From Verrucomicrobia subdivision 3 bacterium UBA7542 (lineage in GTDB: Bacteria > Verrucomicrobiota > Verrucomicrobiia > Limisphaerales > UBA11358), in contig DLMG01000067.1 in NCBI GenBank assembly GCA_002479245.1, positions 1 through 23,538 of the forward strand: 23,538 nt of DNA, read 5' to 3'. The notes under the pieces are model-generated. The model ran no database searches. It was not told where the DNA came from and saw only the letters and a program-made list of their open reading frames with translations. A program made the translations under genes and the position numbers. Shown here piece after piece: positions 18,299-22,177 of this stretch (the stretch's first letter is position 1; each line of letters opens with the position of its first letter).

Positions 18299-19606
18299 CT
18301 AACGGAGGGAGAACCGTTGTTGCCTTTCCTGAACTGCGCCAGTGGCAGTTTGCAGCCAGCGTAGCCATGCCAGCACTGTCGCCGCCCGGCGACCCGGCGT
18401 GGAATTGGCAATAGTTGAATTTCGCGCGATGAACTTTGCGATTTCCGTCCTACCGATGCCGCGATCACCCGCCTTGGCTGACAGTTCCAGCGCCGTCCGA
18501 ACCGGTGGAAACTGCGCCAGCAAACCCGCGAGCAATTGGCGGCGCTCATCTGCCGGACGATTCACATATTCACGGCCCAAGTCGGTAAGCTGATAGACGT
18601 GGCTGCGTTTGTCCTGTGACACCAAGCCAAGAAATTCTGCCGCCTGCCGGTAGTAGCTGCTCTGGCGCGGGTCAAACCGGTAATGCACCGCCAACTTGCT
18701 CGATGTGTTGATGCCTTGCTCAACCAGCAACGGAATTTCCGCAACGCGCCAGAATGAATCTGCCTGTGGCACGTCCCACAACCGTGCATCCGCCCGGCGT
18801 CGGACATGCGCACGCAGCAATTCCTCCACAGTCAAACGCTGCCGGACTGGCTCGACGAGGAAATTTTCGCTTCGCGTGAGCCGCAATGACTGGTATTGGG
18901 CGTCGTCTGCAAACTCGTATTCCCAAAACTTGTAGAGCCGTCGCCCGGAAATTTCCTCCGAGCAGAAAAACCACGGACGAATCTGCTTGGCTGGAATTTC
19001 AATACGCCACTTCCGATAAGGGTAGAACAGCTGCCGAATGATGAAGTCTGGCGGCTGGCCAACCTTTGCTTCGATCAACACGATGTCGTCCCGTCCCTCG
19101 CAACCGGAATCGACTTCTACTTGTACGCCAGCTTTGACATGAATTGGTCCAACTTTCCCAACAGAGAAATCAATGGTCGGCAGTCTCTTCCTGCCTCGAA
19201 TCGTTTGCCGCAAACCTGTAACACGAGCGAATTTCTCGAAGAGGCCGATATTGTAGCAATAGTCGAGATGTTGCATCTCACTGTCTCCGACGTTGAGAGT
19301 CACAAATTCGAAATCAAGCTGTGGTCGGAACACCGTCGGAGGCTCGGGCAGACGCTCAAGTTTGTGGAATCCATTTCCGCGCACGAGAACGTATTCACCA
19401 TTTTTGATTGGCAGAATGAAATACCCATGCCGCCGCAAAGCGGCAGGAACGTCTTTCGACGAATCCATCTTTGCCATCAAACGAAGTTCGTTGCCAGTGA
19501 CTGATTCAATGTCTGTTTTGGTTAACACCACCAAATCAGAAGAAATATCCACTCGTTCTTGCACGAGTTTTTCCCAAGCAGCTTCAAATGGCATGATCAT
19601 CGGCAT
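18299..19606 (-). CDS. Predicted type II restriction endonuclease (PD-(D/E)XK)
   Basis: A 435-residue protein, the probable restriction partner of the adjacent Dam-like methyltransferase. The start is set at ATG 19606: it lies 4 bp after the methyltransferase stop, and a GGAGGA inside that gene's last codons is correctly spaced before it. The N-terminal region (residues 1-100) includes KDVPAALRRHGYFILPIKNGEY and LVRGNGFHKLE. The catalytic core shows VQVEVDSGCEGRDDIVLIEAKVG, giving Asp166 and Glu179-x-Lys181 of a PD-(D/E)XK nuclease, followed by QLFYPYRKWR. The C-terminal 150 residues look like winged-helix DNA-binding modules (YRQAAEFLGLVS to VYQLTDLGREYV, and IGRTEIAKFIARN to AATVLAWLRWLQ). 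Its recognition sequence cannot be read; GATC is only a suggestion from the methyltransferase family. Nothing looks truncated. Confidence 0.85.
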   Translation of the reverse strand: MPMIMPFEAAWEKLVQERVDISSDLVVLTKTDIESVTGNELRLMAKMDSSKDVPAALRRHGYFILPIKNGEYVLVRGNGFHKLERLPEPPTVFRPQLDFEFVTLNVGDSEMQHLDYCYNIGLFEKFARVTGLRQTIRGRKRLPTIDFSVGKVGPIHVKAGVQVEVDSGCEGRDDIVLIEAKVGQPPDFIIRQLFYPYRKWRIEIPAKQIRPWFFCSEEISGRRLYKFWEYEFADDAQYQSLRLTRSENFLVEPVRQRLTVEELLRAHVRRRADARLWDVPQADSFWRVAEIPLLVEQGINTSSKLAVHYRFDPRQSSYYRQAAEFLGLVSQDKRSHVYQLTDLGREYVNRPADERRQLLAGLLAQFPPVRTALELSAKAGDRGIGRTEIAKFIARNSTIANSTPGRRAATVLAWLRWLQTATGAVQERQQRFSLR

Positions 19607-19610
19607 AGTT

Positions 19611-20678
19611 TCAATCTCCTCCAGCGAGAACAACGACCTCGTTGATTGCTCCGCGCTTTGAGCCGTCACAGTTAATTGCGCGGCGCGCTTTAACTGTGTA
19701 AACCTTAAAGCCACGATACAGCTTGCGGATGAATTCTGCGTCAGAGTTGGAAAGCATGAGCCGAACGCCACGCCTGCTGGCGTCAGCAAAAAGGGCTGCG
19801 AGTTCCTGCTGCTCACCCATTCCAAAATCTTCTTTCGTGTAGGAAGTGAAGCTCGCGGTTAGCGAAATCGGATGGTAAGGCGGGTCAACATAAACGAAGT
19901 CGCCACGCCGCGGTTCATTCAGCGTGTCACGGAAATCCTGCGTTGCTAGGTGAACGCCTTCCAATATCCAACTTGCCGCCAAAATGTTTTCCCGGTCGTA
20001 GAGGCCTGGATTCGTTTGCGAGCCAATGGGGACGTTGAATTCGCCACGGCCGTTGACGCGCCAGAGACCGTTGAAGCAGGTCTTGTTAAGGAAAATCATG
20101 CGGGCGGCACGTTCAACCACTTCGGCTTTGGGCAAATGATGCCAACTGCGGACGAGATAGTAGTAACGCTCGCGGTCGGCCCGGAATTCCGCGAGGTGTT
20201 CATCGAGCCGGCGCATCAATGGTTTAGGATGGTCACGAACGGCGATGTAAGTGTTGATGAGTTCGTCGTTGTTGTCGCGCAGGAAGGCGCGCATCTGTGG
20301 GAAACGGTGTTTGAGGTGAAAGAACACCGCGCCGCCGCCAATGAACGGCTCAAAATAACGCTCTACGCGGTCGGGCAGAAATTCGTCAAATTGTGCGAGA
20401 AGTTGCGACTTGCCGCCTACCCATTTGAGAAACGGCTGCGGTTCAACCCGACCCACCGGCGGAATTCCGGCGATGGCGAAATTGACCTGGTCGTCGCCTA
20501 AGCGCTTGCGTCGCGGTGACGTGGACTTAAGCGGGTGAACGATTTCGGAAAGGGACCAAATTGGATCGGGGATCTTACGGCGGATTTTGTAGCGTGCCTT
20601 TGGATCGGATCTCTGATCTGAGCGCGCTGCTTTGGCGGCCCTCGTTTCAGGACGTGTCCGCCGAGATTTGCCCGACAT
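19611..20678 (-). CDS. Dam-family N6-adenine DNA methyltransferase
   Basis: Transfers a methyl group from SAM to adenine in DNA and would protect host sites from the coupled endonuclease. D12-class (Dam-like) motifs are all present: PFLKWVGGKSQLL (83-94), EPFIGGGAVFF (SAM-binding motif I, 110-120), DNNDELINTY (135-144), FLNKTCFNGLWRVN, FNVPIGS and the catalytic DPPY at 265-268. The only in-frame ATG, GTG or TTG start before the core is ATG 20678. This leaves a basic N-terminal extension of about 80 residues that Dam proteins normally lack, part of it encoded by a GATC-rich repeat (20598-20624). Translation is coupled to the endonuclease: the stop lies 4 bp before its ATG. The gene is divergent from the XRE regulator, with an inverted repeat in between. 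GATC specificity is plausible but unproven. Confidence 0.9.
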   Translation of the reverse strand: MSGKSRRTRPETRAAKAARSDQRSDPKARYKIRRKIPDPIWSLSEIVHPLKSTSPRRKRLGDDQVNFAIAGIPPVGRVEPQPFLKWVGGKSQLLAQFDEFLPDRVERYFEPFIGGGAVFFHLKHRFPQMRAFLRDNNDELINTYIAVRDHPKPLMRRLDEHLAEFRADRERYYYLVRSWHHLPKAEVVERAARMIFLNKTCFNGLWRVNGRGEFNVPIGSQTNPGLYDRENILAASWILEGVHLATQDFRDTLNEPRRGDFVYVDPPYHPISLTASFTSYTKEDFGMGEQQELAALFADASRRGVRLMLSNSDAEFIRKLYRGFKVYTVKARRAINCDGSKRGAINEVVVLAGGD

Positions 20679-20713
20679 TCGACTGGATCGATCCAGATCG
20701 GCAAAACAGGATC
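20564..20713. repeat. Cluster of nine GATC sites
   Basis: Nine GATC tetramers in 150 bp, starting at 20564, 20571, 20603, 20608, 20615, 20686, 20690, 20696 and 20710. About 0.6 would be expected with equal base use. The cluster covers the 5' end of the methyltransferase gene and its promoter side. It includes a piece similar to the family B repeat (GGATCGGATCTCTGATCTGA) and the perfect palindrome CTGGATCGATCCAG (20683-20696). Confidence 0.85.
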
Positions 20714-20720
20714 AAGCACA

Positions 20721-20742
20721 AACATTCGATATGTCGAATGTT
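20721..20742. promoter_or_regulatory. Inverted-repeat operator between XRE and methyltransferase genes
   Basis: Perfect 9-nt arms AACATTCGA (20721-20729) and TCGAATGTT (20734-20742) with a TATG spacer. It lies 31 bp before the XRE start and about 42 bp before the methyltransferase start, where a controller protein of a restriction-modification system would bind. The ACATTCGA half-site recurs at 20675-20682, overlapping the methyltransferase start codon, and at 21023-21030, just after the XRE gene. Confidence 0.8.
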
Positions 20743-20773
20743 CGCCGCGTCCAAAATCGGGTTTGCTAGTTTA

Positions 20774-20995
20774 ATGGCTCATGCCGGCAACCATCGGGAG
20801 ATCGTGGGGAGGAACATCCGCGCCTACCGAACCGAAGCGGGTCTGACGCTGGAAAAATTGGCTGAAAAGGCGGAATTGAGTTGGCCTTACCTTTCTGAAA
20901 TCGAGCGCGGGCGTGAGAACATTTCACTCGATAAACTCGCCCAATTGGCGCAAGCACTGAATGTGACGTTGTCCAAACTTGTTGAGAACGCCTGA
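20774..20995 (+). CDS. XRE-family regulator, probable R-M controller protein
   Basis: A 73-residue single-domain helix-turn-helix protein from ATG 20774. The core EIVGRNIRAYRTEAGLTLEK, LAEKAELSWPYLSEIERGRE and NISLDKLAQLAQALNVTLS is a standard Cro/C1-type HTH with the ERG turn, ending in KLVENA. Its small size, its divergent position relative to the methyltransferase-endonuclease operon and the palindrome in the shared intergenic region fit a C-protein that times restriction after methylation. The open frame continues upstream to 20561, but that part overlaps the methyltransferase start and the operator, so the ATG at 20774 is preferred. Direct evidence of binding is not available from sequence. 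Confidence 0.85.
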   Translation: MAHAGNHREIVGRNIRAYRTEAGLTLEKLAEKAELSWPYLSEIERGRENISLDKLAQLAQALNVTLSKLVENA

Positions 20996-21044: not shown

Positions 21045-21146
21045 GGCAAACGGAACATCAGACCGAAGATACGCCAGCAGCTTCAGGAACTTCGCGACCG
21101 GAATTTACTTTTGCACATCGGGCGCGGCGTCTGGCGGCTGCCGTGA
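21045..21146 (+). pseudogene. DpnI/Dam-replacing endonuclease C-terminal remnant 1
   Basis: A reading frame with no start encodes RNIRPKIRQQLQELRDRN followed by LLLHIGRGVWRLP and a TGA at 21144. This is the end of the winged-helix domain of DpnI-type (Dam-replacing) restriction enzymes, and it parallels NVRPKIRQQLQILRDTG and LLIHVESGRWRLP in the remnant at 21462. Upstream, the frame quickly loses similarity and meets a stop at 21003. Only about 33 codons survive. It lies directly behind the XRE gene. Confidence 0.7.
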
Positions 21147-21168: not shown

Positions 21169-21444
21169 TCATTGTGGATTCTCCTCGAGGCCGGTCAGCA
21201 ACGTTTCGAGTTCCTGCCGGCGCGGTTCCAGACTTTTCCGCACGGCAAACTGATTCAACCGGTAAATTCCCCAGTAAAGCAGGGTCACAAACAGTGCCAC
21301 CACCCCGGCAATCATTGCCGCAAAACCTGGATTCCGCGCGTGCAAGGCCGAATGGCCGATGAAAATTCCCACCGCCGCCGCAAACGGCAGCAAATACCAC
21401 CAAAAGACATTTCTCATAAAGGGGTCAGTCCTCACTTTTGACAT
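21169..21444 (-). CDS. Small two-helix membrane protein
   Basis: A 91-residue protein starting at ATG 21444, preceded by GGAGAAGG at suitable spacing. An alternative ATG is at 21417 (MRNVFWWYLLP). Two hydrophobic segments are evident: FWWYLLPFAAAVGIFIG and FAAMIAGVVALFVTLLYWGI. A basic then acidic cytoplasmic tail follows (RKSLEPRRQELETLLTGLEE). I do not recognise a named family; the tail looks like a short coiled coil. It sits between the two DpnI-type remnants, convergent with the first and divergent from the second, so it may belong to an older arrangement of the locus. Function is unknown. Confidence 0.7.
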   Translation of the reverse strand: MSKVRTDPFMRNVFWWYLLPFAAAVGIFIGHSALHARNPGFAAMIAGVVALFVTLLYWGIYRLNQFAVRKSLEPRRQELETLLTGLEENPQ

Positions 21445-21628
21445 TTTTCAGCCTTCTCCCCGGTTAGACGTGCTCAACGCCATCCGCGAAGACCGGACAC
21501 CAAATCTGCTCCTGATGCGCTACGCCCTGGCTACCTGGGAAGTTCGCGACCTGCTCCTGATTCCTTCGTTCATGTTTTCAGAGTCAGCCGTCATCAAGCG
21601 GAAGCCGCTGGCGGCGACCGCGCGCCGC

Positions 21629-21664
21629 GTCCACCCTCCGCAGTACTTGCTACGGAGGACGGGC
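21629..21664. repeat. Palindromic insert 1 in the DpnI-type remnant
   Basis: CCTCCG (21635-21640) and CGGAGG (21653-21658) form a stem. It separates the coding pieces ...ATARR and AGWVGCN, which are adjacent in intact relatives, and shifts the frame. Confidence 0.7.
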
Positions 21665-21684
21665 CGGCTGGGTGGGCTGCAATA

Positions 21685-21703
21685 CCCCGTAAAGAACACG
21701 GGG
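21685..21703. repeat. Palindromic insert 2 in the DpnI-type remnant
   Basis: CCCCGT (21685-21690) and ACGGGG (21698-21703) with a 7-nt loop. It follows AGWVGCN and introduces a stop in that frame. Confidence 0.7.
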
Positions 21704-21768
21704 CAGGTAGCCCATTGCACCGCATCGCGCCCGAAGCCCGCATCCCCATCGTCACGACAGTGGCAAAG

Positions 21769-21848
21769 TGTGGAACAGGCATCCTGCCTGTTTCTGTTTC
21801 CGAAACCGATGCCGCACGCGGAGAACACAGGCCGGAGGCCTGTGCCAC
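21769..21848. repeat. GTGILPV-type mobile palindromic element, in frame
   Basis: Two hairpins, ACAGGCATCCTGCCTGT and ACAGGCCGGAGGCCTGT, flanked by GTGTGGA and GCCACA. In the reading frame it encodes CGTGILPVSVSETDAARGEH and RPEACAT, inserted between TTVAK and TPPEEVR. The element is in frame and free of stop codons. Confidence 0.75.
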
Positions 21849-21966
21849 ATTGATCACCCCGCCGGAAGAAGTCCGCGCGCAGTTCCGTCGCGTCAAACCG
21901 CTCGGCCAAATCAAAGCCAAAGAACGCGGCTGGACACTCGACGTGTTGAACATCGTGCGACGGCTG

Positions 21967-22014
21967 TCCCTCACCCAGCCTGCCGGCCACCCTCTCCCAT
22001 CCGATGGGCGAGGG
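21967..22014. repeat. CTCACCC-type palindromic element, in frame
   Basis: Related in style to the CTCCCTCTCC...GGGAGGG palindromes at 4421 and 16029. It encodes SLTQPAGHPLPSDGRGT between NIVRRL and FTNDEVY, which join directly in relatives. It is the second in-frame insert in this remnant. Confidence 0.65.
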
Positions 22015-22177
22015 ACTTTCACCAACGACGAGGTTTATGCTCACGACCGTGAATTGGAGCGGCTTCATCCGGATAATCGAAATGTCCGGCCCAAAATCCG
22101 CCAACAACTCCAAATTCTCCGCGACACAGGGTTGTTGATTCATGTGGAAAGTGGCCGCTGGCGTTTGCCGTGAATTG

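Follow-up and report, generated by a model that had tools for sequence, protein, structure and literature searches.

When several unrelated palindromic elements lie in the remains of a single gene, the question arises whether they landed in a gene that was already dead or whether some of them had been carried by it while it still worked. This question is raised by a stretch of 23,538 nucleotides from the Verrucomicrobia subdivision 3 bacterium UBA7542 (the window; contig C127 of the genome referred to below as G000, which comprises 4.4 Mb and is about 70% complete), in which the C-terminal two thirds of a broken DpnI-type (Dam-replacing family) gene with four insertions occupy positions 21462-22173 of the forward strand. 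The remnant exceeds the curated cut-offs of both profiles that define the DpnI/Dam-replacing family, namely PF06044 (profile positions 85-139, E-value 1.7e-12, 47.8 bits against a cut-off of 26.7) and PF17726, DpnI_C (positions 20-69, E-value 2.5e-18, 66.4 bits against a cut-off of 23). About 84 N-terminal residues of 255 are absent, and the missing stretch includes the D..(E/Q)xK motif (residues 53-66), so that the catalytic domain is incomplete and we classify the window copy as a remnant and not as an enzyme; the gene is dead.

The remnant was mapped by a block-by-block comparison with a position profile derived from 167 DpnI homologs, with the insert-free homolog P0040 providing the residue numbering; dynamic-programming alignment of DNA to protein, which was also tried for the mapping, chained noise across whole contigs, and the profile blocks were used instead. 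Five DpnI blocks were found in the correct order on the forward strand, separated by four gaps of +34, +25, +87 and +39 nt, with insert boundaries that are accurate to a few bases. The first block belongs to the catalytic domain (residues 86-136; 21476-21628, or from about 21470 in a looser alignment), and it is followed by RAGWVGCN (residues 136-143; 21660-21683), by LHRIAPEARIPIVTT (residues 146-160; 21715-21759), by the segment that joins the catalytic domain to the winged helix (approximately residues 161-200; 21847-21966), and by the DpnI_C winged-helix block with the stop codon (PF17726 positions 20-69; 22015-22173). Upstream of about position 21470 no DpnI block was detected by the profile, apart from a separate tail remnant described below.

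The first gap (about 21629-21662, net +34) contains a hairpin repeat of the form GTCCACCCTCCGC..TACGGAGGACGG, and the second (about 21687-21711, net +25) a hairpin CCCCGTAAA..ACACGGGGCAGG, which is of the CCCCGTAAA..GGGGCAGG type; both shift the frame, and the former lies outside the three loops, A, B and C, that are introduced below. The third gap (about 21760-21846, net +87, loop B) contains a palindromic repeat that we call GTGILPV-type, and the fourth (about 21967-22014, net +39 versus the reference, loop C) a palindromic repeat CTCACCC..GGGCGAGGG; both preserve the frame. All four are given in the forward-strand orientation. The preliminary description of this DNA had proposed that four unrelated elements, two of them in frame, interrupt a dead DpnI-type gene, and the block map bears this out.

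The surroundings of the remnant add a puzzle of their own. On the reverse strand, a gene for a Dam-family adenine methyltransferase (19611-20678; TIGR00571, 275 bits against a cut-off of 114.85; DpnM structure 2dpm, E-value 3.1e-60) is adjoined by a gene with profile matches to DUF6996, DUF6997 and DUF7226 (18299-19825), the product of which is a possible partner nuclease. On the forward strand, a profile match identifies a helix-turn-helix regulator (HTH_3; 20774-20995, start codon chosen by eye), and directly behind it lies the tail remnant of a second DpnI_C domain (about 21051-21146; PF17726, E-value 5.5e-8). A related genome, G025, exhibits the same arrangement as window positions 18299-20995 (L061, 243-4074; its DUF6997 and HTH neighbours were matched to the window by eye), and there, according to neighbourhoods compared by eye, an open DpnI gene takes the position of the second tail remnant, beside a Dam-family methyltransferase. 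DpnI and Dam both acting on GATC should be lethal, hence the G025 copy may be inactive, altered or silent; the occurrence of a DpnI-type enzyme next to a Dam methylase is puzzling, unless the activity of either has been lost or altered. We also observed a short stretch resembling TCAG(T/C)CCTCACTTTTGACA near the remnant (21425-21443) and again on another contig of the same genome (L009, contig C336, about 345-365), which is possibly another repeat.

The inserts are palindromic, dispersed, multi-copy DNA, dispersal having been searched for hairpin 1 and for the GTGILPV and CTCACCC elements. Among 40 scored candidates each, hairpin 1 yielded at least 26 and the GTGILPV element at least 32 matches in their own genome, and the CTCACCC element yielded 10, the window being included in all three counts. 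Full-length GTGILPV matches number 2 of 32 (the window and contig C336), the rest being single arms of 24-40 nt, some of which are the two arms of one element. In the aligned copies the flanks differ from copy to copy (the hairpin-1 alignment comprises 24 rows, 4 of them misplaced near contig starts). As DNA, the GTGILPV element (z -4.5), the CTCACCC element (z -3.3) and hairpin 2 (z -2.0) are predicted to fold better than shuffled sequences, and hairpin 1 within its flanks folds no better than shuffles (z -0.3). A 23-nt relative of hairpin 2 occupies the same place in a broken DpnI copy of contig C336, and broken DpnI copies from two genomes contain further relatives. Visual inspection of the window inserts, and of the GATAA sites described below, revealed no target-site duplication, with boundaries uncertain by a few bases. 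The block map and the dispersed matches together support the view that several unrelated palindromes have used one gene as a landing site.

Whether such elements tolerate, or are tolerated in, coding sequence is another matter. With a chance of one third for each, two in-frame inserts out of four are expected with a probability of about 0.41, and tolerance of coding insertion is therefore not demonstrated by the window alone. The GTGILPV insert is stop-poor, with all six frames open (reached by 0 of 500 mononucleotide shuffles), and the C insert of another genome, G022, is somewhat so (18 of 500 shuffles reach it). The idea that inserts are stop-free by design was rejected, as 7 of the 9 tested inserts were ordinary in comparison with mononucleotide shuffles.

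We collected homologs by two protein searches, one with an insert-bearing protein from G022 and the other with the insert-free P0040; the best 120 of several thousand matches from each gave 167 different homologs, some of them cut or N-terminally short. DpnI itself is rare here, PF06044 being matched in 14 of 320 genomes of the order; of the 49 genomes of the genus, 7 have a match to PF06044 and 9 have one to DpnI_C. Relative to P0040, the 167 listed homologs carry 138 inserts of at least 8 residues, of which 134 are confined to three loops: 23 in A (residues 101-106), 48 in B (156-164) and 63 in C (197-206). The remaining four are at residue 44, at residue 60 (twice) and at residue 141, and nine further inserts are shorter than 8 residues. 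Since the aligner split the B insertions of P0012, P0029 and P0119 in two, B is occupied in 45 proteins, and 131 of 135 occupied sites are in the loops. At least one insert is present in 88 of the 167 listed homologs and none in 79, so that what had been taken for a rare snapshot is common in the family. The pattern is not an artefact of the insert-bearing query: among the 120 proteins listed for P0040, 42 have inserts, and 48 of their 50 inserts are in A, B or C. When insert presence is mapped by parsimony onto a tree of the core sequences (161 of the 167 homologs; 6 were dropped for too few columns), 15, 26 and 39 changes, gains or losses, are required at A, B and C, 80 in total. Inserts were not sorted into families, as single-linkage clustering of their peptides placed 103 of 116 in one cluster; unrelated peptides occupy one and the same site in different homologs, and the position within each loop shifts by several residues.

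The window's own inserts have counterparts in these open genes. The peptide of its C insert is also found at loop C of P0026, a complete protein of 268 residues, and of P0010, which is devoid of approximately the first 41 residues and has, in addition, the insert at residue 141 listed above, near hairpin 2 of the window, a point against the explanation favoured below; GTGILPV-like inserts are found at loop B of P0031 (complete) and P0038. Open full-length genes with three in-frame inserts each are present in G022 (360 residues) and G025 (357 residues), the two insert-bearing open genes covered here at the DNA level, and G032 has an open DpnI gene without any insert of at least 8 residues. Sequences matching the three G022 inserts are dispersed in G022, G000 and G060 and, in smaller number, in G025; by hand count, insert B recurs at 12 and insert C at 14 other places of G022 outside its contig C34.

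These observations bear on the possibility that the loops belong natively to DpnI, as insertions that vary naturally, and do not derive from mobile DNA, a possibility that would agree with their wide distribution in the clade and with their appearing nearly always at three places. The preliminary description had regarded intact homologs with the same inserts as conserved sequence as a sign of native loops, and half of this is borne out: open homologs do have inserts at both of the places concerned and, in P0026 and P0010, the same C insert. That conclusion nevertheless does not follow: we reject native loops because the insert DNA is dispersed in its own genome and because 79 of the 167 homologs are insert-free, and unrelated peptides at one site, as well as the interruption of unrelated genes by the same repeats (see below), speak against them too. 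We regard this explanation as most improbable.

An AlphaFold model of the G022 protein, for which 75 of the 167 homologs supplied the alignment, places the inserts in turns, with a pLDDT of about 50 for the inserts themselves. A lies between strands 95-105 and 146-156, in the turn of a catalytic-domain β-hairpin. B separates strand 197-201 from helix 249-264, ahead of the helices leading into the winged helix, and C follows the first helix of the winged helix, between helix 267-285 and strand 309-311. As the five models disagree (mean pLDDT 76.6, 64.8, 61.8, 54.9 and 53.9), we use the broad placement alone. The closest solved structures are those of DpnI (E-value 6e-22), with which the family shares its fold (PDB 4esj and 4kyw; P0040 versus 4esj, E-value 1.7e-63). 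In contrast to its homologs, which have Q, the protein in 4esj has E in the E-L-K stretch, which we take to have a catalytic role, and the part with the catalytic motif is the one that the window copy has lost. In the alignment of 75 sequences Q64-L65-K66 is invariant and D53 nearly so, and the cores of the two three-insert genes from G022 and G025 differ by a dN of 0.125 and a dS of 0.664. To judge from open frames, conserved residues and this one dN/dS value, the insert-bearing homologs are probably working genes, with the G025 copy beside its Dam-family methyltransferase as a possible exception.

The same pair of genes illustrates another explanation, according to which recombination among DpnI copies accounts for most of the spread of inserts and true insertions are few. 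Insert A is identical between G022 and G025 at 118 of 126 positions, versus 81% for the core, and the tract in which it is embedded is more similar than the remainder of the gene; we make no claim of a recent spread of insert A between the two genomes, since the surrounding tract is likewise more similar. Several broken pieces in G000, G060, G022 and G025, some of which share inserts, also fit this explanation. The many unlike peptides at each site and the 80 changes on the tree, a number that recombination itself can inflate, argue for repeated insertion, and we find it rather unlikely that recombination is the main route.

The broken copies serve as a control for the open ones. They are numerous in G000 and G060, and G022 and G025 also have broken pieces in the vicinity of their open genes. 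In two species several of them are spaced along one contig (L009 on G000:C336, and L045 and L046 on G060:C66 and C49), and some of these have the same or almost the same inserts, which gives the impression that the dead copies themselves had been multiplied. Inserts of at least 18 nt were counted in stretches of G000, G060, G022 and G025 and in one locus of G182, stretches of G001, G009, G010, G030, G064 and G065 being excluded. Altogether 43 inserts in 16 position clusters were mapped in broken copies of G000, G060 and G022; the G025 stretch contained no insert detectable with the profile blocks. Loop A has none, B has 3 (2 in frame) and C has 6 (5 in frame). Outside the three loops, 12 of 34 inserts are in frame, which is the third expected by chance. 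The share of A, B and C differs between open and broken copies with a Fisher p of 4.6e-24, a raw value that overstates the difference because the rows are related by descent; some broken copies share inserts in this way, and there are fewer events than rows.

Because landing in broken copies is broad, we attribute to selection the confinement of inserts to three loops when the gene is open. The alternative, that the loops are hot spots at the level of DNA, where elements recognize a target, has some appeal in one family: CCCCGTAAA..GGGGCAGG elements directly follow GATAA in several broken copies from two genomes, at residues 224 and 229, and their sequence context suggests that this family may have a target preference. 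Residues 224 and 229, however, are outside A, B and C, and neither the shifting of positions by several residues within each loop nor the 16 clusters in broken copies fits a fixed target, so that hot spots appear to us quite improbable as the source of the three-loop pattern.

It could also be supposed, most nearly in line with the snapshot of the preliminary description, that all four palindromes of the window entered a gene that was already dead, and that two are in frame by luck. Two of four in frame is an ordinary outcome, as calculated above, and broken copies do contain many inserts outside the tolerated loops. Yet both in-frame inserts of the window sit exactly at B and C, the insert sites of open homologs; inserts of broken copies are in frame in 7 of 9 cases at B and C versus 12 of 34 elsewhere; and the C insert is common to the complete, open P0026. 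We consider this scenario unlikely. More plausibly, the B and C inserts entered a working gene, or resemble those that enter one, and the hairpins belong to decay; the former two probably date from the working life of the gene and the hairpins are probably later, although for the window copy this order of events is what we infer.

The explanation that we favour, and hold to be very likely, is that the window contains a decaying DpnI-type copy from a family in which REP-like mobile palindromes have landed time and again, with their survival in the loops determined by selection. Elements would insert roughly anywhere in the gene. As long as the gene is in use, selection would remove all insertions except those that are stop-free, a multiple of three in length and located in one of three turns; once the gene is dead this filter would be gone, and inserts would accumulate elsewhere without a preference for frame. 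The inserts at B and C would most likely derive from a working ancestor, and both frame-shifting hairpins, like the loss of the N-terminal third, would date from gene death or later. The likely movers would be RAYT-type Y1 transposases, which are present in the genus.

The same repeats are found in frame in other genes of G000. After merging of arms, 62 matches with loci correspond to 57 places, 34 of which are spanned by an open reading frame (ORF) of at least 150 amino acids, and 27 correctly placed ORFs among these were scanned against Pfam. In 12 of the 27, a single family match runs across the element: AlaRS, a GlnRS-like protein, IleRS, PurL, a protein kinase, an RlmI-like methyltransferase, an RluA-type pseudouridine synthase, the NUDIX part of MutY, DUF2157, an aminotransferase, the large subunit of exonuclease VII and a DnaE-like protein; alaS, glnS, ileS, purL and a dnaE-like gene are thus among the genes with in-frame repeats. 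In 6 more, domains of one gene are found on both sides of the element, namely in PurM, HrpB, an Mfd-like helicase, UbiD (L085, where the element sits between two UbiD domains) and a DinG/YoaA-like helicase (two matches). The remaining 9 have no family match, a one-sided match or an ambiguous fusion (L104). In the HrpB helicase gene (L157, 638-3613, G000:C366) four tandem GTGILPV-type units stand in frame. The suggestion that some elements tolerate coding insertion is hence upheld, by the open DpnI homologs and by these genes that stay open, and not by the window itself.

Whole transposases have been found in similar positions. G000 has 12 matches to Y1_Tnp (RAYT/IS200 family), some of them partial, and in-frame stretches of whole RAYT genes are embedded in genes for the DinG/YoaA-like helicase (G000), PriA (G000, G022 and G025) and AlaRS (G060). 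All five stretches reach the Pfam cut-off for Y1_Tnp and match NF047646 with E-values of 1.3e-15 to 1.2e-23; the one in AlaRS alone passes the NCBIfam cut-off of 80 bits, the other four scoring 57-77 bits. Within the helicase gene (G000:C272; L152, 481-3546) the RAYT (NF047646 E-value 3.9e-18, 65.7 bits; Y1_Tnp 29.6 bits against a cut-off of 23) is flanked by matches to the GTGILPV query at 2033-2121 and 2780-2804, the one locus at which we found such flanking, and it is a candidate autonomous source of the GTGILPV repeat. On visual inspection, many copies of this repeat have GTGG at their outer ends, an observation that concerns the GTGILPV type alone. Mobilization of these repeats by RAYTs would be consistent with this arrangement.

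PriA of this genus (L153, L154, L155 and L158-L187) has one variable loop, which could be measured in 24 of 31 loci: it contains a RAYT motif in 6, is 21-80 residues long in 13, some of these longer loops including GTGILPV-like words, and is at most 20 residues long in 5. The six RAYTs form two groups, with cross-group pairs 32-46% identical over 83-116 columns, and two groups so distant imply at least two insertions into one loop. One loop of AlaRS accommodates a RAYT in G060 (L156, 397-3948, G060:C33) and a GTGILPV palindrome in G000 (L077, 2-2443). A database search with the G060 AlaRS returned at least 120 proteins, many of which are named 'alanyl-tRNA synthetase/REP element-mobilizing transposase RayT' in their source; the RAYT HxH motif is present in the loop of 58 of the 79 measurable proteins among those listed, a fraction favoured by the RAYT-bearing query.

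In-frame palindromes in coding sequence are not without precedent. The Rickettsia palindromic elements (RPE) and the protein-coding palindromic repeats of Wolbachia, described by Ogata, Claverie and co-workers (PMC2229807, PMC3733652), are likewise short and dispersed, and they stand in frame within numerous genes, conserved ones among them, whose proteins tolerate them. They belong to another phylum, and the likeness is one of description and not of sequence comparison with RPEs; the present case differs in that many element types use the same loops of one family and that insert-free, insert-bearing and dead copies exist side by side. Intragenic REPs are known from several bacteria including the Verrucomicrobium Opitutus terrae, and in two Xanthomonas species recB carries different REPs at roughly one and the same position (both in the relevant part of PMC3733652). 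The GTAG/CGTC-tagged REP and RAYT systems described there also comprise verrucomicrobial palindromes inside DNA-repair and other genes, and the majority of the GTAG-20 repeats of O. terrae have GTGG in place of GTAG, by eye just as many GTGILPV copies here start with GTGG; unlike our data, that part of the paper reports neither repeated loop use across a gene family nor a whole in-frame RAYT in a housekeeping gene. A literature search among open-licence papers yielded none on loop inserts of DpnI or on a RAYT inside AlaRS. The recurrent use of loops and the embedded RAYTs thus look new, and in-frame palindromic elements were already known.

A broader interpretation, which we put forward tentatively and with somewhat less than even confidence, is that the REP palindromes and RAYTs of this lineage are chiefly in-frame guests in a few permissive loops of working, often essential enzymes, comparable to inteins but without splicing. 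If so, imprecise loss of the guest would kill the host gene, the loop that carries no more than a palindrome in one species would carry an entire transposase gene in another, as alaS and priA exemplify, and the DpnI relic of the window would represent a host that has died, with the filter lifted. The family amounts to natural insertion mutagenesis, which shows at what positions a restriction enzyme can accommodate 8-80 additional residues, and the presence together of insert-free, insert-bearing and dead copies separates the sites of landing from the sites of survival. For annotation it carries a warning that AlaRS and similar families in this group contain transposase domains, and it offers a concrete system for the persistence of REPs and RAYTs in compact genomes by residence inside essential genes.
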